Positions 11,470-35,234 of a stretch of 35,234 nt of DNA are shown here, one piece after another. The stretch covers positions 1 to 35,234 of the forward strand of contig CAIYMN010000246.1 in the NCBI GenBank assembly GCA_903927295.1, in the 5' to 3' direction. A program made the translations under genes and the position numbers. How positions within the stretch are numbered: position 1 is the stretch's first letter; each line of letters starts with the position of its first letter. This DNA comes from an uncultured beta proteobacterium (lineage in GTDB: Bacteria; Pseudomonadota; Gammaproteobacteria; Burkholderiales; Burkholderiaceae_C). The notes below the pieces were generated by a model. The model was not told the DNA's origin, searched no databases, and saw only the letters and a program-made list of their open reading frames with translations.

Positions 11470-12460
11470 TCCGCGGCCCCGCTTCGCAGCTGTTGGCGCG
11501 GGGCGCATGGGTCGGGGCATCGCGATCGCATTTGCTTACGCCGGGTACCGCATCTCCCTGATCGATCTGCGACAGCGCAGCGCCGATGCCTGGGAAGAGC
11601 TGAAGGGCGAGGCGCGGGCCGAGATCGAGGCCAGTCTGTCGGGTCTGGCTCAGCTCGGCGTAATCGACACGGCCCAGATCAACACCATCGCAGCGCGCGT
11701 GAACTTCGTCAATGCGGCTGATGCACCTGCAGCACTGCAGGCGGCGGATCTGGTGTTTGAAGGTGTGCCTGAAACCCTCTCTGCCAAGCGCGACGCCTTC
11801 GAGCAGATGAACCGCTGCTGCCGTGACGATGCGATATTGACATCGACCACCAGCAGCATTCTTGTGACGCAGCTAGCCGCGCTGGTGCACCGGCCGGAGC
11901 GTTTCCTGAACATGCACTGGCTCAATCCAGCTTACGTGATCCCGGTGGTCGAGCTCAGCTGCCATCCCGCTACCGACCCCGAAGTGCTGGCGCGCGCCAA
12001 AATGCTGATGGAGACCATCGGCAAGCTCCCGGTGGTCTGCGGTGCGTCGCCCGGCTACATTGTGCCGCGCCTGCAGGCGCTGGTGATGAACGAAGCGGCC
12101 CGCATGATTGAAGAGGGCGTCGCCACGGCCGAGGAAATCGACAAGGCAACGCGTTACGGCATGGGCCTGCGCTTTGCGGCCGTCGGTGTGGTCGAGTTCA
12201 TCGACTTCGGCGGTTGCGACATCCTGCACCATGCCAGCCGGGAGATGTCGGCATCAATCAGTCCGCAGCGTTACACCGCACCGGCTATCGTAGACCGCAT
12301 GGTCGAAGAAGGGCGACTCGGTCTGAAAAGCGGCAGCGGTTTTTATGAATATGAGGGTCGCGATGTGGGCGCGTACCGGCGCGACGTACTGTCGCGCACG
12401 CTCGGCATGCTCAAGCATGCGGGGCTTTGGCAAGCGCCGGCCAGCGAGACACGCGAATGA
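11459..12460 (+). CDS. 3-hydroxyacyl-CoA dehydrogenase-family protein
   Basis: This 333-residue protein has the Rossmann motif AVGAGRMGRGIAIAFAYAGY at the N-terminus and an Asp ending the second strand (LIDLR). ILTSTTSSI and FLNMHWLNPAYVIPVVE carry the Ser and His positions typical of 3-hydroxyacyl-CoA dehydrogenases. The C-terminal helical domain ends in LKSGSGFYEYEG, a family hallmark. It therefore probably oxidises a 3-hydroxy acid or its CoA thioester with NAD+. It is a stand-alone dehydrogenase with no enoyl-CoA hydratase domain. The gene starts inside the end of the opine-dehydrogenase-like gene and its stop overlaps the next ATG (ATGA), so translation is coupled on both sides. Confidence 0.88.
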   Translation: MDSSPRPRFAAVGAGRMGRGIAIAFAYAGYRISLIDLRQRSADAWEELKGEARAEIEASLSGLAQLGVIDTAQINTIAARVNFVNAADAPAALQAADLVFEGVPETLSAKRDAFEQMNRCCRDDAILTSTTSSILVTQLAALVHRPERFLNMHWLNPAYVIPVVELSCHPATDPEVLARAKMLMETIGKLPVVCGASPGYIVPRLQALVMNEAARMIEEGVATAEEIDKATRYGMGLRFAAVGVVEFIDFGGCDILHHASREMSASISPQRYTAPAIVDRMVEEGRLGLKSGSGFYEYEGRDVGAYRRDVLSRTLGMLKHAGLWQAPASETRE

Positions 12461-13254
12461 AAATCCGGCGCGCCTTCGCTGATCTCCTTGCGGGGCAGAT
12501 TCACTACGCCGAGTGCGGCGAGCAGCACGCCAAGCCGGTGCTGCTGCTGCATCAGACGCCGCGTTCCTGGGATGAGTACCGCGACGTCTTGCCGCTGCTG
12601 GGGCAGCGTTTTCGCGCCATCGCGATGGACACCATTGGTTTTGGTGATTCATCGAAACCAGCACTCGGCCAGGACTCGATTGAGCATTGGGCACAGACCG
12701 CCATCAGTCTGGCCGACGCGCTGGGCATCGCGCGACTGTCAGTGGTCGGGCACCATACTGGCGCCGCGATCGCCATCGAGATGGCGGCCGCTTACTCCGA
12801 CCGCATTGAGGCTGCCGTGCTGTCCGCTGCACCGCTGGTGAATGCCGAATTTCGCGCCAGCCATGCAGGACCAGTGCGCATCGACAACGCCGTGCATTTG
12901 AGCGACGGCTCGCATCTGCTTGAGCTGTGGCGGCAGCGCCAACCCTGGTACCCGGCAGGTGACATCGTCTTGCTTGATCGCTTCATGGTCGATGCACTCA
13001 AGGCTGGCGCGCGTGCCGTCGAGGGCCACGGCGTGGTGGCACGCTATGTCATGGAAACACGCTTGCCGCTGATTCGCTGCCCGGTGCTGGTGATCGCGCC
13101 AAGCGCAGACCCGCATGCCTACCCCGGCGCGCGGCCGTTGGCCGAAGCCATCGCCGGCAGTCGTTACGTCGAAATCGAAGGCGGCATGGTGCCGCTGCCC
13201 GACCAGATGCCGCAGCGCTTCGCCGAGCTGGTGACGGACTTTCTGCTGACGTAA
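12457..13254 (+). CDS. Alpha/beta-fold hydrolase with atypical active site
   Basis: The 265-residue protein has an alpha/beta-hydrolase layout. The oxyanion-loop region is LLLHQTPRSWDEYRDVLPLL, the nucleophile elbow sits at SVVGHHTGAAIAIE, and the acid strand is VLVIAPSADPH with Asp about 218. The elbow reads GHHTG, so His100 occupies the place of the usual Ser, Asp or Cys. The region where the catalytic His is normally found reads EGGMVPLPDQ, with Met244 at the expected position. It may be a pseudoenzyme, or use other residues; a related family with this same elbow may exist. The start is the ATG overlapping the preceding stop. An in-frame start at 12427 would overlap the previous gene further and is less likely. 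Confidence 0.82.
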   Translation: MKIRRAFADLLAGQIHYAECGEQHAKPVLLLHQTPRSWDEYRDVLPLLGQRFRAIAMDTIGFGDSSKPALGQDSIEHWAQTAISLADALGIARLSVVGHHTGAAIAIEMAAAYSDRIEAAVLSAAPLVNAEFRASHAGPVRIDNAVHLSDGSHLLELWRQRQPWYPAGDIVLLDRFMVDALKAGARAVEGHGVVARYVMETRLPLIRCPVLVIAPSADPHAYPGARPLAEAIAGSRYVEIEGGMVPLPDQMPQRFAELVTDFLLT

Positions 13255-13284
13255 ACTTATTCTCATTCAGTCAATACGCCCCTC

Positions 13285-15414
13285 ATGAGCAAACCCATTG
13301 CGGAGAAATACAAGATCGGCATCGACGTCGGCGGCACGTTCACCGACTTCGCTCTGATGGGCGGCAAGGGCCGCTCGGTCGTGCACAAACAATTGTCGAC
13401 ACCGGCTGATCCGTCAGTCGCCGTGATGGCCGGCCTTGCAGCACTGGCGCAGGCTGAGGGTCTGAGCTTCGATGGCTTTCTGAGTCAGGTCGTGCTGATC
13501 GTGCACGGCACAACCGTGACAACCAACGCGGTCCTCACCGGCCGCACGGCACGCACTGCGCTGCTGACGACTCGCGGTTTTCGGGATACCTTGCAGATGC
13601 GCCGCGGTGTGCGCGAGATGATGTACGACAACCGCTGGCATGCGCCCGAGCCCATCGTACCGCGTCACCTGCGGTTACCAATCAGTGAACGCCTTGATGC
13701 TGCGGGCCGCGAGCTGGTGGCGCTTGATGCGACCGATGTTGAAATAGCGATCCAGACGATGCGCGAGCAGGGTATCGAGGCGGTGGCGATCTGCTTTCTG
13801 CACGCCCATGGCAGCGCCGCACACGAGGAGGAGGCAGCGCTTCTGGTGCAGCAGGGACTGCCGCAGGCCTACCTCTCGGTATCTTCGCGCGTCTTGCCGC
13901 AAGTGCGGTTTTATGAACGCACCAGCACCACCGTGCTCAACGCGGGCGTCGGACCCATCCTCGCGCATTACCTGGACCGGCTGAATGCTCGTCTGGCAGA
14001 GGCACAGTGGCGCGGCACGCTGCTCATCATGCAGTCCAACGGGGGCACTGCCGCGCCGGCCAGTGTGCGGCGCCTGGCCGCGTCAACGCTCTTGTCTGGT
14101 CCCGCCGCTGCGCCGGCGGCAGGACTGGCATGGATGGCGCCCACGCGCAAAAAGAACTTCATCACCGTCGACATGGGGGGCACCAGTTTTGACGCTGCAC
14201 TCGTGCAGGGTGGCCAACCCGCTGTCACCACTGCCGGCCACGTCAATCGCTATGCGATGGCACTGCCCAGCATGGAGATCAACACCATCGGCGCTGGCGG
14301 CGGATCGATCGCCTGGATCGACGATGGTGGCCTGCTGCACATGGGGCCGCAGAGCGCTGGCGCTGATCCCGGCCCGGCCTGCTACGGCAGAGGCGGCACC
14401 GAGCCCACCTGCACCGACGCCAACCTGGTTCTCGGCTACCTGTCAGCCAGTTACTTCGCCGGGGGCCGCCTGCAACTCGACGAGACGGCCGCGCGAAACG
14501 CCATCGAGCAACGCATCGCCACGCCATTGAAGCTGTCGCTGGTCGAAGCGGCGCAGGGAATGTTTCATGTCATCAATGTCGCGATGGCCGCGGCCATCCG
14601 CGAAATTTCAGTGCAAAAAGGTTTCGACCCGCGCGAGTTTCCGCTGGTGTGCGCCGGCGGAGCCGGGCCGCTGCACGGCGCAGCGATCGCCGATGAGCTC
14701 GGCATTGAGCGCGTCTTCGTGCCACGCGAGTCTTCGGTTTTTTGCGCCTCGGGCATGCTGCACAGCGACCTCAAGCACGACCACGTGCGCAGCTTTGCGC
14801 GTGTGCTGCATCCGCCCGGACCGGACCGTGCGCAGGTGCGCGCTGGTGTGCGCGCCCTTCTGCGCGAGATGCGCGCGCAAGGCCGCGCCGCCTTGAAAGC
14901 TGAAGGCATAGCAGTTGAGCGTCAGCAGTTGCGCCACGCGCTGGACCTGCGTTACACGGGGCAGTATCACGAGGTCACGGTCGATGTGCCGGCAGAACTG
15001 CTCGACCGCGGCGATTGGTCTGCGGTAGCCGAGCTCTTCCATAGCCAGCACGACCGCCTCTACGGCTACGCTCTGCGCAGTGAGGGCACAGCCGTCGAAC
15101 TGCTCAGCCTGCGCGTGGCTGCGGTCGGCGTTACCGACAAGCCTGCCCTCAGGCGCCAGCCGCGCACGACGTCCGCAGCGCGCGCTGCGCTCAAGGGGCG
15201 GCGCCCGATCTACCTGCCCGGACGCCTGTCCAGCACCCTGGTGCCGGTCTACGACGGCGAACAACTGTTGCATGGCCATCACTTCAACGGGCCGGCACTG
15301 ATTGAAAGCGCCAATACCAGCATCCTCGTGCCGCCACGCTGGGCCGCAGACATCGACGCGCTCGGCAGCTGTGTGCTGAGCCGGCGTCCAGGAGTCAAGA
15401 GGTCCTCCAGATGA
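13285..15414 (+). CDS. Hydantoinase/oxoprolinase family protein, HyuA-type subunit
   Basis: HyuA-type subunits bind and use ATP to activate an amide, lactam or ketone. The family includes N-methylhydantoinase, 5-oxoprolinase, caprolactamase and acetone/acetophenone carboxylases, all with a HyuB partner. The 709 residues show the ASKHA-fold phosphate loops KIGIDVGGTFTDFALMG (about 10-26) and FITVDMGGTSFDAAL (about 292-306), plus HGTTVTTNAVL and TLLSGPAAAPAAG. It starts 30 bp after the hydrolase gene with a weak ribosome-binding region. Its end overlaps the HyuB gene by 4 bp (ATGA), as expected for a two-subunit enzyme. Whether it is a lactamase/hydantoinase or a carboxylase cannot be told from sequence. 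A CoA ligase downstream suggests the product acid is turned into a CoA thioester. Confidence 0.92.
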   Translation: MSKPIAEKYKIGIDVGGTFTDFALMGGKGRSVVHKQLSTPADPSVAVMAGLAALAQAEGLSFDGFLSQVVLIVHGTTVTTNAVLTGRTARTALLTTRGFRDTLQMRRGVREMMYDNRWHAPEPIVPRHLRLPISERLDAAGRELVALDATDVEIAIQTMREQGIEAVAICFLHAHGSAAHEEEAALLVQQGLPQAYLSVSSRVLPQVRFYERTSTTVLNAGVGPILAHYLDRLNARLAEAQWRGTLLIMQSNGGTAAPASVRRLAASTLLSGPAAAPAAGLAWMAPTRKKNFITVDMGGTSFDAALVQGGQPAVTTAGHVNRYAMALPSMEINTIGAGGGSIAWIDDGGLLHMGPQSAGADPGPACYGRGGTEPTCTDANLVLGYLSASYFAGGRLQLDETAARNAIEQRIATPLKLSLVEAAQGMFHVINVAMAAAIREISVQKGFDPREFPLVCAGGAGPLHGAAIADELGIERVFVPRESSVFCASGMLHSDLKHDHVRSFARVLHPPGPDRAQVRAGVRALLREMRAQGRAALKAEGIAVERQQLRHALDLRYTGQYHEVTVDVPAELLDRGDWSAVAELFHSQHDRLYGYALRSEGTAVELLSLRVAAVGVTDKPALRRQPRTTSAARAALKGRRPIYLPGRLSSTLVPVYDGEQLLHGHHFNGPALIESANTSILVPPRWAADIDALGSCVLSRRPGVKRSSR

Positions 15415-24155: not shown

Positions 24156-25586
24156 TCAGGGTTCAGACATGGCGCGCATTTGTCGATCAACTTCCTCGTT
24201 CGAAAGTACGCTTTGATCCACCCTGCGCGTTGCCTCGTTGTCGAGCAGGTGTACCGTCCAAGGGGTTGTGAATACCGCCAGCGTGATGGCGGCCTGCGCG
24301 ACCAGATAGGGAAATAGCGAGCGAATCAAAATGGCATTGGAGACCTTCGCCAGACCAGACCGGGCGCGCGCCACCATGACTGCATAGCCCATTGGCGGGA
24401 CAAGAAAGCTCAGCTGCAACACCAGCAGCAACAGCACGGCTGTCTGCTGCGCATCGCCCATTCGCACGATCATCGCGGGTGCCACGATGGGGATGATCAC
24501 GAAGATCATTTCAAAGGCGTCAAGTACACAGGCACAAAGCGCCACCAACAGCAGCACCAGGGCCACGGTCAGCGTGCCCGACAGCGACGAGCTCAGAATG
24601 GCGTCCGCAATCCATTGTCCCGTTCCCCAAAGCCGGAATACCAGGCTGAAGGTTGTTGCTCCAACCAGCAGCGCGAACAAGGAACCGCTCAGGTTCATGG
24701 TCTCGTGCAAGGTTTCTTCCCAGTCGGCCCAGCTCAGTGCGCGACTGGCAAGTGCCGCAGCGATCAACATGACCGCCAGGGTTGCAGAGGCCTCCACCGC
24801 AAAAAAGCGACCCGCAAAGACACCCATCAGCAGCACAACGACGGTCACCGTGAATATCGCAGAAACAAACCATTGAAGTCGAGCGACGGGCTCACTGGAG
24901 GGGCGGACCTTCTGATTGCGGCCTTGCCACCAGGCCACCAAGAGCCATAGCAGGGTGATGGCGGTTGCCGGTAGCAGTGCGGATTGAAATACGTCGTGCG
25001 TGTTGATGATTCGTTGCCCCGTCAACCCGTAGCCCGGCAGGTTGCTCGCTTCCCGGTGGGCGCGCAACATGGTGTCTCCCAGCAAGATCAGGACCATCGA
25101 TGGTGGGACCACGACACCCACCGTACTTGCTGTACAGATCAGTGAGGTCGCGTTGGCTGCATGGAAGGGACCCAGACGGGGTCCGATCAGGCGGGCCAGC
25201 ATGGCGGTACTCGATGCCACGGATCCGTTATTGGTGGCCACCAGCGCCCCTATGCCAAAGGAGGCGATAGCATCTCCGGCGCCGGTGCGCCGGGTCATCC
25301 GCTCCAGCGTCACATACAAGGCGTCAGCAATCTGCAAGCGCTGCATCAGGCAGCCGACAAAGACATACAGCGGGAGGGCCTGCAGTAAGTCATGTTCAAG
25401 CAATCCGAGGGTGCGACTGCTTGCAGCGCTGAGTACACCTGGATCAAACAATCCGAGAAAACATCCGATCAGGGAAAAAATGCTTGCGGTGGCGATAAGG
25501 GAAAGCCAGATCGGTATGCCAGTCGTCACCACCAGCAGCGCCAGCGTCAGCAGCATCAGGAGGCCGGTTGACGGGTGAAGCGTCAT
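24156..25586 (-). CDS. TRAP transporter large permease (DctM-like)
   Basis: This 476-residue inner-membrane protein has the many hydrophobic segments of TRAP large subunits. Family features include LPLYVFVGCLMQRLQIAD near residues 90-110, SFGIGALVATNNGSVASSTAMLARL, and VVPPSMVLILLGDTM. Near the C-terminus QLSFLVPPMGYAVMVARA matches the DctM end region. The ATG at 25586 shares its first base with the preceding dctQ stop (TGATG); a GTG one codon earlier is possible. TRAP carriers need a periplasmic DctP or TAXI receptor, but none is encoded beside it. It is the last gene of the kinase-deoR-thioesterase-TRAP operon, and a decayed redoxin gene lies beyond. Confidence 0.9.
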   Translation of the reverse strand: MTLHPSTGLLMLLTLALLVVTTGIPIWLSLIATASIFSLIGCFLGLFDPGVLSAASSRTLGLLEHDLLQALPLYVFVGCLMQRLQIADALYVTLERMTRRTGAGDAIASFGIGALVATNNGSVASSTAMLARLIGPRLGPFHAANATSLICTASTVGVVVPPSMVLILLGDTMLRAHREASNLPGYGLTGQRIINTHDVFQSALLPATAITLLWLLVAWWQGRNQKVRPSSEPVARLQWFVSAIFTVTVVVLLMGVFAGRFFAVEASATLAVMLIAAALASRALSWADWEETLHETMNLSGSLFALLVGATTFSLVFRLWGTGQWIADAILSSSLSGTLTVALVLLLVALCACVLDAFEMIFVIIPIVAPAMIVRMGDAQQTAVLLLLVLQLSFLVPPMGYAVMVARARSGLAKVSNAILIRSLFPYLVAQAAITLAVFTTPWTVHLLDNEATRRVDQSVLSNEEVDRQMRAMSEP

Positions 25587-26053
25587 CACGGGGCCTGTCT
25601 CAAGTTCTTCACCAGGCGCAACAGGCCATCGCAGAGCGCCAGTGCGGCCAATAGCACCAGGGCCACCCGAATCAGAAAGTAGCCAGGCGTAAATGTTTCA
25701 CCAAAATGCTCCAGGGACTTCACCGAGTCCCACATTTGGGGTAGCGCCACCCAAAGTACCAGCAAGGCCCAGGGAGCCAGGCACAGAAAGTTGAGCACCA
25801 GGCGCCACCGGGGAGCCGGTCGTGTTGTGGTGAGCCTGGATCTCGCAATGGCCAGATGGCTATTTGAGCGTGTGGCCGTGGTAACAGCGACTGCCATGTA
25901 GAGGGCAAACAGGATTTGTGCCACATCGTTAGCCAGCAGTGAATAGCCTTGTAGCCAGTCGCGCAAGGGCCACTGTGCAAACAGCAGCACGGCCAACGGG
26001 ATGACCATGGCACCAAAGAAGACCCTGAAGAATCGGCTCAAGATGAATTCCAT
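25586..26053 (-). CDS. TRAP transporter small permease (DctQ-like)
   Basis: The 155-residue protein has four hydrophobic segments and the size of DctQ subunits. SLLANDVAQILFALYMAVAVTTA and the basic loop after it (RSNSHLAIARSRLTTTRPAPR) resemble the N-HLAI/V pattern of small TRAP permeases. It overlaps dctM by one base of stop and start, and its own ATG likewise shares a base with the thioesterase stop, so all three are coupled. It would pair with the large permease in the inner membrane. Confidence 0.85.
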   Translation of the reverse strand: MEFILSRFFRVFFGAMVIPLAVLLFAQWPLRDWLQGYSLLANDVAQILFALYMAVAVTTATRSNSHLAIARSRLTTTRPAPRWRLVLNFLCLAPWALLVLWVALPQMWDSVKSLEHFGETFTPGYFLIRVALVLLAALALCDGLLRLVKNLRQAP

Positions 26054-26868
26054 CAATCGCGGCGACTGACCAGCAGACTCTGCATGGCCCGGCCCACGAG
26101 GCCGCTGGCATCATAGAGCGCGGACTCGGCAAGCCCTGTGCCATTGGGCCCCAGGTACGTGCGTGCATCCAGGCAAATCCATTCACCCTGCGGCCTGCGC
26201 AGCAGATGGATGGTCAGGTCGGAATTGAGAAAACTGTGGGTCTCGAATTGGAGAATCGCACTGATACCGTTGCCGGAATCAGCAGCCACGGCAACGCGCT
26301 GGTAGTCACTGGGTGACTCCATGTCCAGCAGGGGGTGGCGCAAGCGGAACCAGACGGCACTCGGACCCTGGAACATATGACCCTGTGCAATTCGCGTCTC
26401 CACGAGGTCCGCGTAACCCACGTGCTTGCCGGCAAAAGGGAATGTGCACGTTGCTGATTCTTCGGGAGTTCTGGGCGCCATTGGCAAAGGATGGCCGGGC
26501 AGACCATCAGGCAGTGGCACTTCGTTCTCGCGCTGGGCCAGCGCCGTAAAGCGTGCCACTTCCTTTCCGCCGGCCCTGATCTGCGCCGAAAAATGGCCAA
26601 CGTTTCGTCCAACGTAGTCTGTGCTGACCTCAAGAGAGAGCTCTCCGATGGGAACGGGGCGCAGCAGGTTGGCAGTAAGCCGTGCGATGTGGGTCAATCC
26701 GTGCTGGCCAGCGGCCTGCTCGATGGCGCCGCATACCAGCGCGATCGGCGGGCCCGCATGCTGGTGTTGCGGGTGCCAGGGGCCGCGCGTCAACACGCTG
26801 GCGCGGTACGAGCCATTCCCTAGTGTTTCGTAGGCGCTGCCGGGAGTGGCTACTGTGTTTGTGGTCAC
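26053..26868 (-). CDS. Acyl-CoA thioesterase family protein (TesB-like double hotdog)
   Basis: The 271-residue protein fits the double-hotdog thioesterase group. The N-terminal half has WHPQHQHAGPPIALVCGAIEQ (split as WHPQHQHAGPP and IALVCGAIEQ) with LTANLLRPVPIGELSLEV. The C-terminal half has FLNSDLTIHLLRRPQGEWICLDAR and a closing GLAESALYDASGLVGRAMQ, which is typical. It would hydrolyse acyl-CoA thioesters in the cytoplasm. A GTG start at 26868 is chosen because GGAG lies six bases upstream; the frame is open to a TTG at 26886 that would overlap deoR. It sits between a DeoR-type regulator and TRAP permease genes, an unusual partner for a sugar-kinase operon. Confidence 0.85.
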   Translation of the reverse strand: MTTNTVATPGSAYETLGNGSYRASVLTRGPWHPQHQHAGPPIALVCGAIEQAAGQHGLTHIARLTANLLRPVPIGELSLEVSTDYVGRNVGHFSAQIRAGGKEVARFTALAQRENEVPLPDGLPGHPLPMAPRTPEESATCTFPFAGKHVGYADLVETRIAQGHMFQGPSAVWFRLRHPLLDMESPSDYQRVAVAADSGNGISAILQFETHSFLNSDLTIHLLRRPQGEWICLDARTYLGPNGTGLAESALYDASGLVGRAMQSLLVSRRD

Positions 26869-26882
26869 GATGAACTCCAGAA

Positions 26883-27683
26883 TCAAGGCTCGTCCGGCAC
26901 CCGGACCACCTGCACTCCGGTGGCCTCCAGTTCCTCGCAGAAGGCAGGGGGCGTCAACCAGTCAGTCACGATCATATCGATCCGGCTCAGCGGACTGGTG
27001 AGAAAGCTCGATACGCAGTTCATCTTGGTGTGGTCGGCCACAATGATCACCTTGCCGCTGGAGTTCTCGATCATGGCCTTGTTGACGCTGGTTTCCGTGC
27101 TGACGGCGCTGGTACAGCCCTTCTTGATGCTCACCCCATTGATGCCCAGCACGGTGACGCTGGAAAATATGCCGTGCAGTCCGGCCAGGGTCAGGTCACC
27201 GACCAGCGATTTGGAGTGGATGCGGTAGTCGCCACCGAGCAGGATCAGTTCCTGCTGCGGATCCAGGTCGAGTGCCAGGCAGGCCGTGTTGTTGGTGACG
27301 ATGCGGGTTCGTCTGCCGCGCAAATGATGGATCACTTCCAGCGTGGTGGAGCCGCCATTGGCGAAAACGGTTTCATTCTCTGATATCAGCGACGCGACAT
27401 AACGCCCGATCAGGCTCTTTTCGCGTTTGGCGGAATGGTCTTTTTCCTCGAAGAACTCTTCCATGCGCAGTCCCGAGACCGAGATGGCGCCGCCGCGCGT
27501 GCGCTCCAGCAGCTTGTGTGCAGCCAGCGCGTCGAGGTCGCGCCGGATCGTGATCTTGGAGACGCCGAACTCGGTCGAGAGTTCATCAGCCGAAACCGAC
27601 TGGCGCTGTGACAGCATCTCCAGAATCTTCTTGTGCCGGTAGTTCGATACCTTCATGGTTTCACTCTGTTTGGGTTTGCTCAT
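26883..27683 (-). CDS. DeoR/GlpR-family transcriptional regulator
   Basis: This 266-residue regulator has an N-terminal winged helix-turn-helix (YRHKKILEMLSQRQSVSADEL, then FGVSKITIRRDLDALAA) and a DeoR effector domain. The latter includes ISENETVFANGGSTTLEVIHHL, VVGD-like LVGDLTLAGL, and VIIVADHTKMN. DeoR-family repressors usually respond to phosphorylated sugars; UlaR and GlpR are examples. Its ATG overlaps the kinase stop (ATGA), so it is made with the kinase and is the natural candidate to control the divergent kinase/FG-GAP promoters and the ulaG promoter. The effector is probably the kinase product or a downstream sugar phosphate, which is inference. Confidence 0.92.
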   Translation of the reverse strand: MSKPKQSETMKVSNYRHKKILEMLSQRQSVSADELSTEFGVSKITIRRDLDALAAHKLLERTRGGAISVSGLRMEEFFEEKDHSAKREKSLIGRYVASLISENETVFANGGSTTLEVIHHLRGRRTRIVTNNTACLALDLDPQQELILLGGDYRIHSKSLVGDLTLAGLHGIFSSVTVLGINGVSIKKGCTSAVSTETSVNKAMIENSSGKVIIVADHTKMNCVSSFLTSPLSRIDMIVTDWLTPPAFCEELEATGVQVVRVPDEP

Positions 27684-29206
27684 GCTTTCAAGTCCGGTGT
27701 TTTCAGCAATTCGCGCAGTGCAGGCGTGGCCAGCGCCTGGTATAGCGCGTGCGACTGTGCTCGCCGCTGTGCATAGACGCTGGCGTTGGCCGGATCGGGT
27801 TCGTAGCGGACCGATCTGCTGTCGCGATGGGCCCGCTCAAACGCTGCCGGGTAGCTGGGCTCCAGCCCGAAGGCAACGGCAGCGGCAATCCAGGCACCCA
27901 GCGACGTGGCCTCGTTGTTGTCAAAGCGCACAACCGGGCGCTCGAACACGTCACTTTGAATCTGGTTGAACAGCTCGGACTTGCTCATGCCACCCGATAC
28001 GCTGACCGATTCCACTCTGCCGCAGAGTTGCTCCACCAGTTCCAGGCTGGCCTTCAGCTCGATAGCGATGCCCTCCAGAATGGCGCGCGCAATCTCGCCG
28101 CGTGAAGTGCTTAGCGTTAGATTGAAGAAGACGCCCCGAGCCTGTGCGTCCCAGTAGGGCGATCCGCTGCCCTTGAAGTGCGGTAGCGCAAGCAGTCCGT
28201 TGCAGCCGGCCACCGCATGGGCTGCCTCGGCATTGAGTTGCTCGAACGTCAGGTCGGCCCCGTTGTTGTTCTGGCAGAGAGATTCCTTGAACCAGCGGTA
28301 AATCGTGCCCGAAGTCAGCACGGCGGCTTCAACGATGTAGGCGCCGGGCACGGCAGAGACATTGCAGGCCAGGCGCATGGCGCTATCGAGCGCCGGCTTG
28401 CTGCTGTGCCCGATCAGATAGGAGCCGGTACCTGCGTTGGAGACGGCGCGCTCGCCGGAAAAAAGACCCAGCCCGAGCGCGGCGCACTGCTGGTCACCCG
28501 CAGCGGAAACCACCGGCAGCCCGGTTGGCAGTCCGGTGGCGCAGGCCATGGCGCTGCTCAGGTCTCCCACCACCGAACCCGGCGCCACCAGATCGCACAG
28601 CATGGCAGCAGGCACTTCGAACAGCTCCAGCAACTCCGCATCCCAGCAGCGCGTCTCCAGATTGAGCAGGTTGGTGCGGCTGGCGAAACTCTGGTCGGTG
28701 ACAAAGCGTCCGGTCAGCAGATACAGCACCCAGTCCTGTATGCCCAGCAGCTTGTGCGTTTTGCTCCAGGTGTCGGGGCTATGGTGGCGCAGCCAGCGCA
28801 TCTTGATGGCAGAAAAGACCGGTGAAATCTTCAGACCGGTCTTGCCATAGACCAGTGCGTTGGATTCGCTCATGGCCTGGGCCATATCGGCGCTGCGCCG
28901 GTCCTGCCACATGATGGCCGGATGCAGGGCTGCCCCCATTCTGTCCACCGGGATTACCGACGAGCGTGATGCGGTGACGGCGATGCCAAGCGGTTCCAGG
29001 CCAGCGCTACGGGCCGCCTCAGCACAGGATTTCAGGGTCGTCAGCAGCACTTCCTGCCACTGCACGGGATCCTGTTCGACCCTGCCATCGTCAAAGAAAA
29101 CCGGCAGGTTTCCTTGTTGGACCATGTGCAGCATACGGCCGCAGGCATCGTAAAGGCTGGCCCTGCTGCTGGTCGTGCCGATATCGACGGTGATGATTGC
29201 TTTCAT
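27680..29206 (-). CDS. FGGY-family carbohydrate kinase
   Basis: This 508-residue kinase of the FGGY group (xylulokinase, ribulokinase, LsrK and relatives) transfers ATP phosphate to a sugar or sugar-acid hydroxyl. It begins MKAIITVDIGTTSSRASLYD with the phosphate-binding loop. It contains ITASRSS-like VTASRSSVIPVD, MWQDRRSADMA, AAGDQQCAALGLGLF, SNAGTGSYLIG and the C-terminal SVSGGMSKSELFNQIQSDVF. The ATG at 29206 is preceded by AAGG; an open extension to 29251 has no family similarity. It is the first gene of the - strand operon and diverges from the FG-GAP/ulaG/ABC genes. In E. coli the PTS makes ascorbate 6-phosphate; a kinase could fill that step here. Confidence 0.92.
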   Translation of the reverse strand: MKAIITVDIGTTSSRASLYDACGRMLHMVQQGNLPVFFDDGRVEQDPVQWQEVLLTTLKSCAEAARSAGLEPLGIAVTASRSSVIPVDRMGAALHPAIMWQDRRSADMAQAMSESNALVYGKTGLKISPVFSAIKMRWLRHHSPDTWSKTHKLLGIQDWVLYLLTGRFVTDQSFASRTNLLNLETRCWDAELLELFEVPAAMLCDLVAPGSVVGDLSSAMACATGLPTGLPVVSAAGDQQCAALGLGLFSGERAVSNAGTGSYLIGHSSKPALDSAMRLACNVSAVPGAYIVEAAVLTSGTIYRWFKESLCQNNNGADLTFEQLNAEAAHAVAGCNGLLALPHFKGSGSPYWDAQARGVFFNLTLSTSRGEIARAILEGIAIELKASLELVEQLCGRVESVSVSGGMSKSELFNQIQSDVFERPVVRFDNNEATSLGAWIAAAVAFGLEPSYPAAFERAHRDSRSVRYEPDPANASVYAQRRAQSHALYQALATPALRELLKTPDLKA

Positions 29207-29252
29207 GCCCACCTTGTGTGCCCTTTTGTCGATTTGATTGTAGAACTGCAAG

Positions 29253-29333
29253 CGATCAATGTCTGTGCTTGGGTGCTTTTGCGATGGCTAAAATGAACAT
29301 ATTGACCGATTGATGAGTCAAATTGATCGTTTT
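29253..29333. promoter_or_regulatory. Divergent promoter/operator region between kinase and FG-GAP gene
   Basis: The 138-bp gap between the two divergent starts is AT-rich relative to its surroundings. It contains CGATCAAT (29253-29260) and its exact reverse complement ATTGATCG (29322-29329). The second copy lies in TGAGTCAAATTGATCGTTTT (29314-29333), which recurs with one mismatch over 19 bases upstream of ulaG. These are good candidates for binding sites of the DeoR-type regulator encoded in the same cluster. AAGGA at 29334-29338 is the ribosome-binding site of the + strand gene. Exact -35 and -10 boxes cannot be assigned with confidence. Confidence 0.55.
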
Positions 29334-29344
29334 AAAGGACGCCC

Positions 29345-30382
29345 ATGAAGATCGAAAAGCGTTTTCTGACCACCATGAACCGATGCTATTCAGCCAACTG
29401 CATCGAGGTCGATGGCGAGCCACGCATCCTGCTGGCCACGGAAGGAGAAGGCCCGTGTCTGGCCTGGACCGGGTCCGACTACACGGAGTCTCACACGGTC
29501 TGGGATGGGCCTGGCGGCACCATGTCCATGGTCCCGATCCCTGGCAGCAACGGTGAGTTTCTGGCGGTGCAAAAGTTCTTCAAGATGTTCCAGTGGGAAG
29601 AAGCCAAGATCGTCCACGTGCGGCCCTTGGCTGACCGGGGCTATGAGGTCACTGACGTATTGCATCTACCCTACATCCATCGCTTCGATTTGCTGACGGT
29701 GGGTGGGACACACTACTTCATTGGCTGCACGCTGGCGACGACCAAGGAATCCAAGGAAGACTGGTCAAATCCGGGAAAGATCTGGGTCGGCGAGTTCACT
29801 GGCAAGGGGGAACTCCAGGTCCGTGTCCTGAAGGACGGGTTGAGCAAGAACCATGGCTACAGTCGCCTGACGCGAAGCGGGCGCATGTCGGCTTTGGTGA
29901 CCTGCGAGCAGGGTGCCTTCGAGGTAACACCACCGCCGGGTCCGGATGCCGACTGGACAGTTCAGCAGTTCATGGACTGGCCGATCAGCGACATTTCCGC
30001 CATCGATATTGACGGCGACGGTGAACTTGAATTTGCCACGATAGAGCCTTTTCACGGTTCCTGGTTTCGCATTTACAAGAAGTTCGACGGCCAGTTCCGC
30101 AAGGTCTACGAGCATCCCGAGGTCTCCGAGTTCTACCACGTCGTGGTCGGTACGACGCTCGCAGGTGTGCCGGTGTTCATCGGCGGTTGCCGGCGCGGCA
30201 AGCAGCAGCTCTTTTACGTTCGCGCCTCGATCGCGAAGCCACTGCAGTTTGCGCTTGAGGTGATCGAGGAAGGCGTCGGTCCGAGCAATGTTTACGTCCG
30301 GCACGAAGTGGGGCGGGACATCATCGTGGCCGCGAACCGCGAGAAGGCCGAGGCCGCGCTGTATTTCGCCACCAGTTCTTGA
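29345..30382 (+). CDS. Uncharacterised FG-GAP/VCBS-like protein
   Basis: I do not recognise a characterised homologue. The 345-residue protein starts MKIEKRFLTTMNRCYSANC, has no signal peptide or membrane segment, and should be cytoplasmic. It is rich in beta-strand-like, aromatic and glycine-containing repeats. One segment, AIDIDGDGELEFATIEPFHG (about 219-238), fits an FG-GAP/VCBS repeat with an Asp-rich calcium-type loop, so a beta-propeller is likely. AAGGA precedes the ATG. It is the first + strand gene facing the kinase and precedes ulaG by 153 bp. Co-location suggests a role in the same sugar-acid pathway, possibly as a lactonase-like or epimerase-like propeller enzyme or a binding protein; that is speculative. 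Confidence 0.7.
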   Translation: MKIEKRFLTTMNRCYSANCIEVDGEPRILLATEGEGPCLAWTGSDYTESHTVWDGPGGTMSMVPIPGSNGEFLAVQKFFKMFQWEEAKIVHVRPLADRGYEVTDVLHLPYIHRFDLLTVGGTHYFIGCTLATTKESKEDWSNPGKIWVGEFTGKGELQVRVLKDGLSKNHGYSRLTRSGRMSALVTCEQGAFEVTPPPGPDADWTVQQFMDWPISDISAIDIDGDGELEFATIEPFHGSWFRIYKKFDGQFRKVYEHPEVSEFYHVVVGTTLAGVPVFIGGCRRGKQQLFYVRASIAKPLQFALEVIEEGVGPSNVYVRHEVGRDIIVAANREKAEAALYFATSS

Positions 30383-30407
30383 TCTTGCGCAACAAGTGGC
30401 GAAATAG

Positions 30408-30486
30408 GATCAAAATGATTGGAAAGATCAAAAAGATGATCATATTATGAAAAGTTGACGAGTTTAGTGAGTCGAATTGATCGTTT
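30408..30486. promoter_or_regulatory. Putative operator/promoter region upstream of ulaG
   Basis: The AT-rich gap before ulaG contains two direct repeats, GATCAAAATGAT (30408-30419) and GATCAAAAAGAT (30426-30437), spaced 18 bp apart, and then TGAGTCGAATTGATCGTTT (30468-30486). The last matches the sequence upstream of the FG-GAP gene at 18 of 19 positions. This suggests a second, separately regulated promoter inside the + strand cluster, under the same regulator as the divergent promoter. No terminator hairpin was seen after the FG-GAP gene, so readthrough is also possible. Confidence 0.55.
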
Positions 30487-30535
30487 ACTTTGGCAGTATG
30501 CGACGGCCGACCGGAGCAGCAACGAGGAAAAGAAA

Positions 30536-31600
30536 TTGGCAAAAGTAGATGAAATCACCAAGGAATCCTGGGTTCTGAGCACCTTTCCGCAATGGGGCAC
30601 CTGGCTTAACGAAGAGATCGAGCGCGAGCTTGTGAAGCCCGGCACTTTCGCCATGTGGTGGCTGGCTTGCACCGGTATCTGGCTGAAGTCTGAGGGCAAC
30701 ACCAACATCTGCGTTGACCTCTGGTGCGGCACGGGCAAGCGCTCCATGAAGAATCCGCTGATGGACCCGCATCACCAGATGGCGCGCATGACGGGCTGCG
30801 TCAAGTTGCAGCGCAATCTGCGCGTGTCTCCGTTCGTGATCGATCCCTTCGCCATCCGCAGCGTTGACGCAGTGCTGTCCACGCACACGCACAATGACCA
30901 CATCGACATCAACGTGGCCGCCGCCGTGCTGAAGAACTGCCCGGCCACGGTGCCCTTCATCGGCCCACAGTCCAGCACCGATGTCTGGCTCAAATGGGGC
31001 GTGCCGCGCGAGCGCATCACCACCGTTCGCCCGGGCGACGTGGTGAAGGTGGGTGACGTCGAGATCGTGGTGCTCGAAGCTTTTGATCGCACCATGGCAC
31101 TGACTATTCCCGCTGGCCAGACCGCCAAGGGCAAGATGCCACCGGACATGGACGATGTAGCGGTGAATTACCTGTTCAAGACTCCGGGCGGCAGCCTGTA
31201 CCACAGCGGCGATTCGCACTACGCCAACGGCTACGCCAAACACGGTAACGAGCACGTGGTGGATGTGGCGCTGGGCAGTTATGGCGAGAACCCGCGCGGT
31301 GTGACAGACAAGATGACGTCCTCGGACATTCTGCGCATGGCCGAGTGTCTGAACTGCAAGGTGGTCATCGCCTACCACCACGACATCTGGTCCAACTTCA
31401 TGGCCGACCCCGCCGAGATCACGATGCTGTGGAACATGAAGAAGGATCGACTCAAGTACAAGTTCAAGCCCTTCACCTGGCAGGTTGGCGGCAAGTTCAT
31501 CTACCCCGACAACAAGGACGATCTGGAGTACCACTACGAACGTGGCTTTGATGACGTCTTCACCAAGGATACGGACTTGCCGTTTCCGTCGTTCCTTTAG
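30536..31600 (+). CDS. ulaG: UlaG-like L-ascorbate-6-phosphate lactonase (metallo-beta-lactamase fold)
   Basis: UlaG hydrolyses L-ascorbate 6-phosphate to 3-keto-L-gulonate 6-phosphate using a metal centre in a metallo-beta-lactamase fold. The match is strong along the whole length, for example [56 protein letters not shown] and [17 protein letters not shown]. Metal ligands are expected in [15 protein letters not shown]. The TTG at 30536 with GAGGA seven bases upstream gives 354 residues, the length of E. coli UlaG as I recall it. An open extension to an ATG at 30455 would run through the putative operator and is rejected. No PTS genes (ulaABC) or ulaDEF genes are in the window, so the substrate could be ascorbate phosphate or a related phospho-lactone. 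Confidence 0.9.
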
Positions 31601-31619
31601 ACCCATCGAAGGCCACACC

Positions 31620-32708
31620 ATGACCTTACCCGTCCACGGTCTGCAGCTTCAGGGCGTGAGCAAGCGCTTTGGCAGCGTGAGCGTGGTGCAGGAACTCGAT
31701 CTGACGGTGGAACAGGGTGAATTCGTGGTGCTGCTCGGCGAGTCCGGTTGCGGCAAGTCCACCGTGCTGCGCATGATCGCCGGTCTGGAAGACGTGAGCG
31801 ATGGCCACATCTTCATCAATGGCAGGGAGGTGACGAATCTGGCACCCATGTCGCGCGACATTGCCATGGTGTTCCAGAACTATGCGCTCTATCCGCACAT
31901 GGACGTGGCGCAGAACATGAGTTTTGCGCTGGACCTGGCAGGCAAACCCAGGGCGGAAATTGAAAGGCGTGTCAATGAGGCGGCAGAAATCCTGAGCATC
32001 ACGCACCTGCTCAAGCGAAAGCCGAAGGAACTCTCCGGCGGACAGCGGCAAAGGGTGGCGATCGGGCGCTGCATCGTGCGCGAACCAGCGGTCTTCCTTT
32101 TTGATGAACCGCTGTCCAATCTGGACGCCAAACTGCGTGGCCACATGCGCACCGAACTGGCCATGCTGCATGAGCGCCTGGGCAAGACCACGATTTATGT
32201 CACACACGATCAGGTCGAAGCCATGACCCTGGCTTCGCGCATCGTGATCTTTCACAAGGGCCACATCCAGCAGGTGGGCACTCCCGCGGAAGTCTTTAAT
32301 CGACCGGCCAACCTGTTTGTGGCAGCCTTCATCGGCATGCCCAGCATGAATCTGCTGGAGGGCGCGCTGACGCCGCAAGGCGATCAGATGCTTCTGTGTG
32401 GTGCCGGTTTCTCCATCCCCTTGCCATTGGCCGGACCCTGGCCGGCGCAACTGGTGGCTGGCGTGCGACCGCAGGCGCTGCGTCTGGCGGCGGGGACAGG
32501 CCTGATGCAACTTCAGGTTGATGTGGTGGAGTATCTGGGAACCGAATCGGTGCTGGTGGGGAAATTGGCTGGCGGTGGCGAAGGCCGCATCACGGCGGTC
32601 GTCAGTGGGCACCGGATTGATTTGCTGCACCAGACCGTGGCGCTCGAATTTGACGCAGACGAGCTGCACACCTTCGACAAGAGCACCGGACTGAGAGTTC
32701 ACGTTTGA
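31620..32708 (+). CDS. Carbohydrate ABC transporter ATPase (MalK/UgpC type)
   Basis: The 362-residue ATPase has Walker A GESGCGKST, Q-loop FQNYALYPHM, signature LSGGQRQRVAIGRCIV, Walker B VFLFDEPLSNLDAKLR and the H-loop VTHDQVEAMTLA. A C-terminal MOP/TOBE-type domain (about 240-362) is typical of the MalK/UgpC group that energises sugar importers. It starts 19 bp after ulaG and is followed by a binding protein and two permeases, giving a complete carbohydrate importer. An upstream in-frame start at 31485 lies within ulaG and is rejected. Confidence 0.92.
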   Translation: MTLPVHGLQLQGVSKRFGSVSVVQELDLTVEQGEFVVLLGESGCGKSTVLRMIAGLEDVSDGHIFINGREVTNLAPMSRDIAMVFQNYALYPHMDVAQNMSFALDLAGKPRAEIERRVNEAAEILSITHLLKRKPKELSGGQRQRVAIGRCIVREPAVFLFDEPLSNLDAKLRGHMRTELAMLHERLGKTTIYVTHDQVEAMTLASRIVIFHKGHIQQVGTPAEVFNRPANLFVAAFIGMPSMNLLEGALTPQGDQMLLCGAGFSIPLPLAGPWPAQLVAGVRPQALRLAAGTGLMQLQVDVVEYLGTESVLVGKLAGGGEGRITAVVSGHRIDLLHQTVALEFDADELHTFDKSTGLRVHV

Positions 32709-32734
32709 TTTTCGACAACCTCTAGGAGATGAAG

Positions 32735-34075
32735 ATGAAGAGAAGAACACTGATTCAAACCGCTGGCGGTAGCGCGCTGGGCCTGCTCGGTGCCGGGCTG
32801 CCCCTGTTTGGCTACGCGCAGGATCGCTTCGCAAAATACAAAGGCCAGACCGTCGTGCTGAGCATCCCGGCGCACCCGCATTACGACGCCATGGTGAAAC
32901 TGCTGCCTGAATTCACGAAACAGACCGGTATCAAGGTCGAGGTGGACAAGCTGGCCATGGCGCGCATGAAGGACAAGCAATTGCTGGAGATGGCCAAGCC
33001 TTCGGGCGACTACGACCTGATCTGCTACGTCGTCATGTGGAAGGGTGAATACGTCAAGAAGAATCTGATCCGCGAACTTGAACCGTTCTTCAAGAATACG
33101 GCGCTGGCGGACCCCAACTACGACTTCAAGGACGTGGTGCCGCGCTATGTGGAAAACATGGGTTTGGTCGGTGGTCCCAAGGGTTATCTGGCAGGCCCCG
33201 GCGCCAAACTCTACGGCATGCCCTACGGTGCCGAGACCTCGGTACTGGCGTATCGGCGCGACATCTTTGCCAAGCACAACCTGAAGGCGCCAGAGAACTA
33301 CGCCGACTTCGAAAAACTGTTGCCGATCCTGAAAGACAAGGCCGGCATCGGCGCCTTGACCTCGCGCGGGCAGGCCGGTCACCAGTGCGTTCACGCCTGG
33401 TTGCTGCATTTGAATCCGCTCGGTGGCAAGGTGTTTGATGACAAGTGGAAGCCGATCTTCAACAACGAGACCGGTGTCAAGGCGCTCAATTTCCTGAAGC
33501 TGGTTTCCGACACCGGCCCGGTCGGTATTCCGGGTTACGGACAGGGCGAAATGATCACATCCTTCCTGCAGGGGCAGGCTGCGATGTACCTTGATTCATC
33601 CCTGATCTTCGGACAGGTCAACAACCCGTCCGTGTCCAAGATTGGCGGCCAGGTGAGCTATGTGGTTCATCCCAAGGGCGTGCGCCATTCTTCGCAATCG
33701 GGCGGTCTGGGTCTGGCGATTCCGAAGAACGCGAAGAACGCCGACGCCGCCTTTCTCTTGATGCAGTGGCTCACTTCCAAGGAGCAGGACAAGGCGGTTT
33801 GCCGTATCGGTGGTGTGCCGAGTCGCAACTCGACCATGATGGACCAGGACATGGTGCGCCAGTATCCCGAGTACATCACGCTGCGTCAGCAACTTGAGTA
33901 TTCCGATCCCGACTGGCGCCCCATCATCGCCGAGTGGGACGAGATCAACATCCAGGCGCTGGGTGTTGCAGTCTCCGAAGCACTTACCGGGAAAAAGAAG
34001 GCGCAGGAAGCTCTCGACGGCATTGTGCCCAAGGTGACCGACATCATGAAGCGTGGCGGTTACCTGAAGGCTTGA
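32735..34075 (+). CDS. Family 1 extracellular solute-binding protein, probable Tat substrate
   Basis: This periplasmic carbohydrate-binding protein (446 residues) begins MKRRTLIQTAGGSALGLLG, a twin-arginine-type signal (RRTLIQ), with likely cleavage after GYAQ. The mature part shows the two-lobed family 1 layout, e.g. TVVLSIPAHPHYDAMVKLLPEF, LYGMPYGAETSVLAYRRDIF and GLGLAIPKNAKNADAAFLLMQWL (a mid-to-late segment). The ATG at 32735 is preferred over 32729 because AGGAG then lies six bases upstream. It is placed between the ATPase and permease genes and would define the substrate of the UlaG-linked importer, probably a sugar acid, lactone or disaccharide. Confidence 0.9.
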   Translation: MKRRTLIQTAGGSALGLLGAGLPLFGYAQDRFAKYKGQTVVLSIPAHPHYDAMVKLLPEFTKQTGIKVEVDKLAMARMKDKQLLEMAKPSGDYDLICYVVMWKGEYVKKNLIRELEPFFKNTALADPNYDFKDVVPRYVENMGLVGGPKGYLAGPGAKLYGMPYGAETSVLAYRRDIFAKHNLKAPENYADFEKLLPILKDKAGIGALTSRGQAGHQCVHAWLLHLNPLGGKVFDDKWKPIFNNETGVKALNFLKLVSDTGPVGIPGYGQGEMITSFLQGQAAMYLDSSLIFGQVNNPSVSKIGGQVSYVVHPKGVRHSSQSGGLGLAIPKNAKNADAAFLLMQWLTSKEQDKAVCRIGGVPSRNSTMMDQDMVRQYPEYITLRQQLEYSDPDWRPIIAEWDEINIQALGVAVSEALTGKKKAQEALDGIVPKVTDIMKRGGYLKA

Positions 34076-34078
34076 TCG

Positions 34079-34960
34079 ATGCGCACCCCGGCGTGGGTTC
34101 CCTGGGTCTATCTGGGACCGGCCGCGGCCGTGATGGCTGCGGCCTGCCTGTACCCGCTGTTGTCTGCCTTGCAACTCGGCTTTTACGACTGGAGCATGGG
34201 GACGCCCTGGGGTGAGGCAAAGTGGGTCGGGCTGGATGCCTTCAGCCGGGCCGTTCAGGATCCGTCGGTGTGGCGCTCCCTGCGCACCACGCTGTTGTTC
34301 GCTTTTGTGTGCGTTACGGCCGAGATGGTGCTGGGCATTGCGCTGGCCCTGGCCCTGGAAGGCCAGGTGCGCGCCATGGCCTTCTTTCGCACGCTCTTCA
34401 TCCTTCCGATGATGATTGCGCCTATCGCCGTGGGCTTGACGTGGCGCTATCTGTTCGACGCGCAGTTCGGTCTGATCAACGCCATTCTGGCCGTCTTCGG
34501 ACACGCACCAGTGGGTTGGCTGGCGCAGGAGGACACAGCCTTTATGGCCATCATCATTGCCGACATCTGGCAGTGGACGCCTTTTGTCTTCATCATGATG
34601 ATTGCCGCGCTGGCCAATGTCGATGGTGCCGTGCTGGAAGCAGCGCGGGTCGATGGTGCCAACTGGTGGCAGACCACGTTCCGGGTCAAGCTGCCGATGG
34701 TGATGAACGTGATCGCGATTACTCTGCTGATGCGCTTGATCGATGCCTTCCGTGTGCTGGAAGTGATTTACATCCTGACCTTTGGCGGACCCGGTGATAG
34801 CACCGAGATCCTGTCGCTGCACATTTACAAGACCGCTTTCGTGGGCCAGCGTCTGGGCGGCGCGGCCGCCATTTCGGTGCTGCTGCTGATCGTCGTCGCC
34901 GGTCTGTCCTGGTTCGCGCTGCGCCTGTCCAATCCACTGAAGGATGAGGAGCGTTCATGA
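34079..34960 (+). CDS. Carbohydrate ABC transporter permease (MalF/UgpA type)
   Basis: This 293-residue inner-membrane permease has about six hydrophobic segments. The cytoplasmic EAA loop appears as DGAVLEAARVDGANWWQTTFRVKLP (the EAA-x3-G pattern EAARVDG). It starts 3 bp after the binding-protein stop, and its own stop overlaps the next ATG. The EAA loop should contact the MalK-like ATPase encoded upstream. N-terminal WVYLGPAAAVMAAACLYPLL is typical of sugar-importer permeases. Confidence 0.92.
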   Translation: MRTPAWVPWVYLGPAAAVMAAACLYPLLSALQLGFYDWSMGTPWGEAKWVGLDAFSRAVQDPSVWRSLRTTLLFAFVCVTAEMVLGIALALALEGQVRAMAFFRTLFILPMMIAPIAVGLTWRYLFDAQFGLINAILAVFGHAPVGWLAQEDTAFMAIIIADIWQWTPFVFIMMIAALANVDGAVLEAARVDGANWWQTTFRVKLPMVMNVIAITLLMRLIDAFRVLEVIYILTFGGPGDSTEILSLHIYKTAFVGQRLGGAAAISVLLLIVVAGLSWFALRLSNPLKDEERS

Positions 34961-35234
34961 GCGTCAAAAGGCATCCGGCCTTGGTTGTGGCGCACTACGG
35001 AATGCTGATTTTGCTGGCCGTGGTGTGCGTGGCACCCATCATCCTGATGTTCGCGACCTCGCTGAAACTGCAGACGCAGATTTTCAACACCGGCATCAAC
35101 TTCATTTTTGCGCCCACGCTGGAAAACTACCGCGACGTGCTGGGCGAAGACAGCTTCAAGCGTTACCTGGGCAACAGCCTGTTGGTGGGTGTGGTGTCCA
35201 CGGTCATCACCCTGGTGCTGGGCTGCATGGCGGC
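34957..35234 (+). CDS. Carbohydrate ABC transporter permease (MalG/UgpE type), 5' part
   Basis: The window ends about 92 codons into this gene. The N-terminus (MSVKRHPALVVAHYGMLILL, then VVCVAPIILMFATSLK) and the ENYRDVLGEDSFKRYLGNSLLVG segment match second permeases of carbohydrate importers, which normally run to about 270-300 residues. The ATG overlaps the stop of the first permease gene. The EAA loop lies beyond the window edge. Confidence 0.9.
   Translation, partial: MSVKRHPALVVAHYGMLILLAVVCVAPIILMFATSLKLQTQIFNTGINFIFAPTLENYRDVLGEDSFKRYLGNSLLVGVVSTVITLVLGCMA

Follow-up and report, generated by a model that had tools for sequence, protein, structure and literature searches.

A candidate phosphotransferase-independent L-ascorbate cluster in which a predicted β-propeller protein may stand in for UlaD

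The DNA considered here, referred to as the window, spans contig C246 (35,234 nucleotides) from end to end; the contig belongs to a metagenome-assembled genome (MAG) of an uncultured beta-proteobacterium (G000; 4.1 Mb, 400 contigs, 87% complete). At positions 26883–35234 of the window, the minus strand encodes a DeoR-family regulator together with an FGGY kinase, and the plus strand, divergently, an FG-GAP-like protein, the lactonase UlaG and an ATP-binding cassette (ABC) importer. We read this cluster, with somewhat more confidence than doubt, as an L-ascorbate catabolic system that is free of the phosphotransferase system (PTS) and in which the FG-GAP-like protein, modeled as a β-propeller, takes the place of UlaD.

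Genes of the cluster

The FG-GAP-like protein (29345–30382, plus strand; 345 residues) touches the Pfam FG-GAP model at 15.1 bits, below the cut-off of 22.1, and matches no NCBIfam model, including NF009832 for UlaD. It is followed by the gene for the L-ascorbate-6-phosphate lactonase UlaG (30536–31600, plus strand), which scores 626.9 bits against the NF008688 equivalog, about twice the cut-off of 306. This protein matches Escherichia coli UlaG (2wyl) at E = 8e-187, and its metallo-beta-lactamase metal motif aligns with THDHNDHIDVN of 2wyl. The TTG at 30536 is a likelier start than position 30455, giving 354 residues, a length common to many relatives. In the species-level scan, the nearest relatives of the window UlaG come from MAGs labeled as beta-proteobacteria. 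Elsewhere, in the Rhodoferax/Hydrogenophaga branch, two consecutive related genes lie upstream of ulaG (L051:5526–6937 and L046:1411–2852, where L numbers denote loci and, below, G numbers genomes); the one of each pair that was scanned is a HAD-type hydrolase.

The FGGY kinase (27680–29206, minus strand; 508 residues) scores 190.1 bits for FGGY_N and 123.7 bits for FGGY_C, and contains the stretches GDQQC, GTGSY, and GGMSKS. A longer open frame begins at the TTG at 29251, with the ATG at 29206 the likely start. The protein matches 12 NCBIfam FGGY families, each below its cut-off, and so joins no family of named substrate; we consider it probable that it is a soluble L-ascorbate 6-kinase. Divergent kinase and FG-GAP-like genes less than 400 bases apart recur in 20 further loci, and relatives with the whole gene set carry UlaG proteins 77–97% identical to that of the window, which argues that the linkage is not a matter of chance.

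Downstream of ulaG, all on the plus strand, lie the genes of a CUT1 importer: an ATPase of the UgpC/MalK type (31620–32708; NF008653, 460.5 bits against a cut-off of 432), a solute-binding protein (32729–34075; Pfam SBP_bac_1, 128.7 bits) that stays below the cut-off of all three NCBIfam binders matched, and two permeases. The first permease (34079–34960) matches Pfam BPD_transp_1 at 52 bits, and its best NCBIfam model, UgpA, lies under the cut-off. The second is present as a 5′ part (34957–35234) that ends with the contig; its ATG at 34957 overlaps the stop codon of the first, and it is 93% identical over 0.3 of permease 2 of L044. The window contains no match to EIIC, EIIB, or EIIA, in a search that covered the window and not the whole genome.

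The regulator (26883–27683, minus strand; 266 residues) scores 62.5 bits for Pfam HTH_DeoR and 116.9 bits for DeoRC. The original prediction called it a DeoR-family regulator like UlaR; the family assignment holds, whereas the NCBIfam UlaR model (NF010034) gives 101.2 bits against a cut-off of 244, and by this measure the protein is not an UlaR. The protein would control the divergent promoter. Candidate operators are offered by AATTGATCGTTT, which occurs on the plus strand at 29321–29332, upstream of the FG-GAP-like gene, and as an exact repeat at 30475–30486, upstream of ulaG. With up to one mismatch allowed, 0.23 matches were expected and two or more arose in 2 of 100 shuffles, for a pattern that was picked after it had been sighted. 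In several relatives, the spacer between the kinase and FG-GAP-like genes holds CGATC-N5-GATCG palindromes, which are also candidate sites. Beyond the regulator gene, at 24156–26886, come genes for a DctM-type tripartite ATP-independent periplasmic (TRAP) permease and an acyl-CoA thioesterase, together with a small neighbor whose DctQ match is sub-threshold; no tie between any of the three and the ascorbate pathway was found.

All of the genes named in the original prediction are present, and their joint occurrence recurs in relatives rather than being confined to one genome. That prediction had also noted the absence of genes for the UlaD, UlaE, and UlaF steps from the window. The latter two are not missing from the genome: UlaE (C147:18852–19700; 405 bits) adjoins UlaF (C147:19705–20394; 76% identical to that of L047) on another contig, and both lie near the cluster in relatives, for example L041, L044, L047, L050, and L081. 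UlaD is the step for which no gene was found.

Distribution of UlaD and the FG-GAP-like protein

Sixty-four UlaG loci were compared, comprising the window, 56 loci found by scanning a single genome from each species, and seven from a second draw. The FG-GAP-like protein is encoded in 40 and UlaD in 20 (two of which, L076 and L077, are contigs of one genome); no locus holds both, and four hold neither. In three of these four (L046, L052, and L053), the contig stops before the position that the FG-GAP-like gene occupies in the sister loci L045, L051, and L055, while in the fourth, L093, UlaG is broken. The one other UlaG above the cut-off in 399 genomes, L009 (G297), is not among the 64; its 4-kb stretch carries UlaG and DeoR, with UlaF and EIIC each present in part, and extends neither to UlaD nor to the FG-GAP-like gene.

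Among the loci with the FG-GAP-like protein are beta-proteobacterial ones that encode an FGGY kinase, most of which also show ABC genes over the stretch read. In Hungatella, an FG-GAP-like and FGGY locus includes a different type of sugar ABC genes, and in Clostridium, Eubacterium, Pectinatus, an Anaerolineales MAG, and a proteobacterial MAG (L054) the FG-GAP-like protein is accompanied by a PTS, whose IIC component in L054 exceeds the ascorbate IIC cut-off (NF006919, 396.7 bits against 380). The UlaD loci include those of Enterobacterales, Vibrio, Endozoicomonas, spirochaetes, Uliginosibacterium, and Telmatospirillum, together with three genomes in which a PfkB-family kinase, and no PTS, occurs in the UlaG/UlaD locus: an Acidobacteriaceae MAG, Phycicoccus, and a Bifidobacteriaceae MAG (L063:7808–8800, L076:13888–14859, and L078:3–799). 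FGGY and PTS matches coincide in one of the 64 loci, L093, where the FGGY protein is 27% identical; elsewhere PfkB sits next to a PTS in L135 and next to FGGY in L060. From these combinations, phosphorylation in the pathway appears in three forms (PTS, FGGY, and PfkB) and decarboxylation in two. Some FGGY loci (L057, L058, L060, L061, and L091), from Propionivibrio, Accumulibacter, and one proteobacterial MAG, hold no homolog of the window importer in the stretch read. Two open reading frames after UlaG in L057 (342 and 799 residues; 11145–14659) were considered as a TRAP transporter, a reading we rejected since they match no Pfam or NCBIfam family.

The exclusion extends beyond the loci themselves. 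The UlaD model NF009832 (cut-off 250 bits) was run against 48 genomes, being G000 and those behind 49 of the 56 loci. None of the 34 genomes carrying the FG-GAP-like protein has UlaD above the cut-off, and 32 have nothing above 24 bits. Of the genomes with UlaD-type loci, 10 of 10 reached 225 bits and 8 of 10 exceeded the cut-off (12 of 12 and 10 of 12 with two later genomes included). The four genomes of neither-type loci gave no match, and neither did UlaD surpass the cut-off in five further carriers or in two more (one of which, G1040, has only a remnant), the best score being 30.8 bits. On these genome-wide scans, we rejected the idea of a UlaD lodged elsewhere in the carrier genomes. Some clostridial loci have a neighboring gene, c31, that was a further suspect; it encodes a fructose-6-phosphate aldolase (TIGR00875) and is not a hidden UlaD. 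Such aldolase genes occur in the clostridial FG-GAP-like loci at L066:3837–4484, L070:16366–17013, and L075:18034; the TIGR00875 assignment is that of L066, with the L070 and L075 copies 70–72% identical.

Among 398 genomes of the phylum of Hungatella, eight have UlaG above the cut-off (Hungatella and seven new ones), of which six carry the FG-GAP-like gene and two carry UlaD; four UlaG-like matches of 215–248 bits (L138–L141), 32–36% identical and without ula neighbors, were dropped before this count. Searching the same genomes for the FG-GAP-like family returned eight carriers, namely those six, G839, and G1040. The locus of G839, L157, encodes the FG-GAP-like protein with UlaE, UlaF, a GntR regulator, an epimerase-like protein, a major facilitator superfamily (MFS) transporter, and an FGGY kinase 26% identical to its nearest query. 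Neither UlaG nor a PTS appears in the 14 kb read, the contig starting 1.6 kb beyond the FG-GAP-like gene, and G839 is not among the UlaG matches of the 398-genome draw at E values up to 1e-60. In G1040, a C-terminal FG-GAP-like remnant (L158:9325–9717) adjoins an intact-looking UlaF frame, amid flagellin-like and flagellar-hook-like frames read by eye; this is apparently a decayed operon.

G797 belongs to the same order as Pectinatus. Of 189 genomes from that order, 43 encode the family, in 44 places, four of them counted earlier. The 40 newly read places include UlaE in 36, UlaF in 35, EIIC in 29, UlaG in 26, and UlaD in none. One genome, G1265, has two copies: L190 lies in a PTS-UlaG locus, and L192 has the UlaG-free arrangement of G839 (MFS transporter 74% and FGGY kinase 55% identical), with UlaE and UlaF present and neither UlaG nor PTS in the stretch read. 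With L157, L192, and the variety of transporters in view, the FG-GAP-like protein depends neither on UlaG nor on any one transporter for its occurrence. What it keeps company with is UlaE and UlaF, occupying the slot of UlaD. The family profile finds the window genome alone among 349 Pseudomonadota genomes and G839 alone among 61 genomes of its order, and has no match in the plasmid collection.

A modeled propeller and a proposed pathway

UlaD is a triosephosphate isomerase (TIM) barrel of the orotidine 5′-monophosphate decarboxylase suprafamily. The FG-GAP-like protein shares with it the same operon partners and the same inferred place in the pathway, but its model is built of 28 strands, lacks long helices, and is not a TIM barrel. 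Instead, the model forms a seven-bladed propeller that superposes on residues 20–435 of aldos-2-ulose dehydratase (AUDH), the nearest fold in two models (VIA-align, ahead by 6 to 7 in Z). Ten residues are invariant over 80 FG-GAP-like sequences matched over at least 90%: Y15, H112, R113, D139, N169, H170, H237, H265, R283, and N315. Y15, H112, H170, D216, H265, and N315 lie at or beside the start of the innermost strand in six of the seven blades, the strands having been assigned by hand from the model. D115 and D223, invariant in a 26-row alignment, are conserved in 67 and 48, respectively, of the 80 sequences.

UlaE presumably takes L-xylulose 5-phosphate, its established substrate in E. coli, as stated in PMC3219644; some decarboxylation is therefore expected before UlaE. 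In the pathway we propose, the ABC importer would take up unmodified ascorbate, and the FGGY kinase would form L-ascorbate 6-phosphate. UlaG, by homology, would open the lactone to give 3-keto-L-gulonate 6-phosphate, which the propeller protein, in place of UlaD, would convert to L-xylulose 5-phosphate. UlaE and UlaF, encoded on the other contig and again assigned by homology, would carry this on to D-xylulose 5-phosphate. A likely chemistry at the propeller is that a bound divalent metal holds the C3 keto group and stabilizes the enediolate after loss of CO2. UlaD uses a metal in this way, as does AUDH at its propeller site.

These parts of the proposal are not equally secure. That ascorbate is the substrate of the cluster seems very likely. 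Mutual exclusion with UlaD, operon position, and modeled fold together make it reasonably likely that the propeller is the decarboxylase. For the kinase branch, the complete proposition, that the propeller protein partners a soluble L-ascorbate 6-kinase, stands about evenly balanced. An independent-pair test of FG-GAP against FGGY found three pairs. The sequence of import without phosphorylation, action of a soluble kinase, and lactone hydrolysis put forward in the original prediction is well supported, in that the gene set recurs in relatives and FGGY and PTS hardly ever share a locus. Its account was mostly right, and its passing mention of the FG-GAP protein touched what has proved to be the rarest part of the cluster.

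Competing readings and related systems

Several observations weigh against a propeller decarboxylase. Foldseek ranks LGI1 first for the model and leaves AUDH outside its best 50; a family profile search of the PDB finds no AUDH chain, so that the likeness is one of fold only. The Pfam AUDH model PF22301 touches one of 26 family members, with a score of 17.9 bits that falls short of the cut-off of 27, and does not match the window protein. In G000, the best UlaD match is a 20.7-bit fragment, and because the MAG is 87% complete, absence from this genome alone proves little. The UlaG tree shows few label changes between FG-GAP and UlaD and does not give their direction. Three of the 40 newly read places have no ula gene nearby. 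Two of them, L196 and L197, lie at contig edges; the third is a true orphan (L221:9015–10082, in G1390) that neighbors a MATE transporter and has no ula genes to a distance of about 9 kb. Sub-cut-off UlaD-like proteins exist in Hungatella (107 bits) and in the genome of L054 (64 bits). Lastly, β-keto acids can decarboxylate unaided, and 3-keto-L-gulonate 6-phosphate might lose CO2 spontaneously.

The last point underlies an alternative that we consider rather unlikely, in which the pathway runs as proposed, the FG-GAP-like protein has an auxiliary role, for example as a ring or hydrate isomerase, and decarboxylation is spontaneous or due to an unrecognized enzyme. The orphan copy in L221 can be cited in its favor, as can the view, given in PMC8023676, that β-propellers are mostly recognition sites and possibly catalytic. 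An auxiliary role would not predict the loss of UlaD each time, whereas the exclusion is strict in 60 of the 60 loci holding either protein; moreover, L157 and L192, with UlaE and UlaF in the absence of UlaG, link the FG-GAP-like protein to the decarboxylation step.

Less probable still is that the cluster serves a different sugar lactone, with a shift of substrate in both UlaG and the kinase and with products that enter via UlaE and UlaF by another route. The original prediction had left room for such a substrate. Neither the FGGY kinase nor the binding protein reaches the cut-off of any named family it matched, and PMC3219644 cautions that the route served by homologous ulaDEF units blurs with divergence. 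On the other side stand the UlaG score, twice that required of the equivalog, the retention of UlaE and UlaF in the genome and near the clusters of relatives, which weakens the earlier doubt, and the pairing of UlaG and the FG-GAP-like protein with an ascorbate-type PTS IIC in L054, and with the same kind in Clostridia and the order of Pectinatus.

Finally, it is most improbable that a divergent UlaD paralog, such as those of Hungatella and the L054 genome, acts in trans and that lineage alone accounts for the exclusion, for these are two of 34 carrier genomes with nothing comparable in the other 32, paralogs of 75–133 bits coexist with true UlaD in some genomes (so that the Hungatella protein need not be UlaD), and the FG-GAP/UlaD label requires four changes on the UlaG tree, three of them forced by well supported branches (a quick tree of 61 proteins with long rows present, stops masked as X, and L093, L094, and L077 left out).

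The proposed replacement of UlaD by the propeller protein also sets the cluster apart from the systems it most resembles. With the E. coli Ula pathway (UlaABC-G-D-E-F), the window genome shares homologs of UlaG, UlaE, and UlaF and a DeoR-family regulator; it differs in having an ABC importer and FGGY kinase, with no PTS genes in the window, and an FG-GAP-like propeller with no UlaD found in the genome. The E. coli yia/sgb (diketogulonate) pathway begins with an FGGY kinase and continues through UlaD-, UlaE-, and UlaF-type steps. L157 and L192, which lack UlaG in the stretches read, resemble that pathway; the window differs from it in its UlaG, its distinct FGGY protein (26% identical to that of L157), and the propeller at the decarboxylase step. 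AUDH itself (PF22301) is 10–12% identical to the window protein, whose 345 residues leave no space for the further domains of AUDH, and which has no signal peptide as judged by eye and a different predicted reaction.

Section 9 of Fernandez et al. 2011 (PMC3219644) reports no replacement of ulaD, and the terms "kinase" and "ABC transporter" are absent from the text of the paper. We found no publication on an ascorbate kinase or on a decarboxylase with VCBS, in a search outside which most subscription papers fall, so that prior work may exist; nor did any of the matches listed, judged by title or the start of the abstract, concern a swap between UlaD and a propeller.

The analysis gives a testable function to a conserved propeller family that neither Pfam nor NCBIfam names. 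If the assignment is correct, it would fill the missing ascorbate step in anaerobes and beta-proteobacteria whose annotation shows an incomplete pathway, and the β-propeller would join the folds known for sugar-phosphate decarboxylation. More broadly, the ascorbate pathway emerges as a kit of exchangeable parts, in which a PTS, an FGGY kinase, or a PfkB kinase may be combined with UlaD or a propeller, and the swap recurs in several other bacterial groups.

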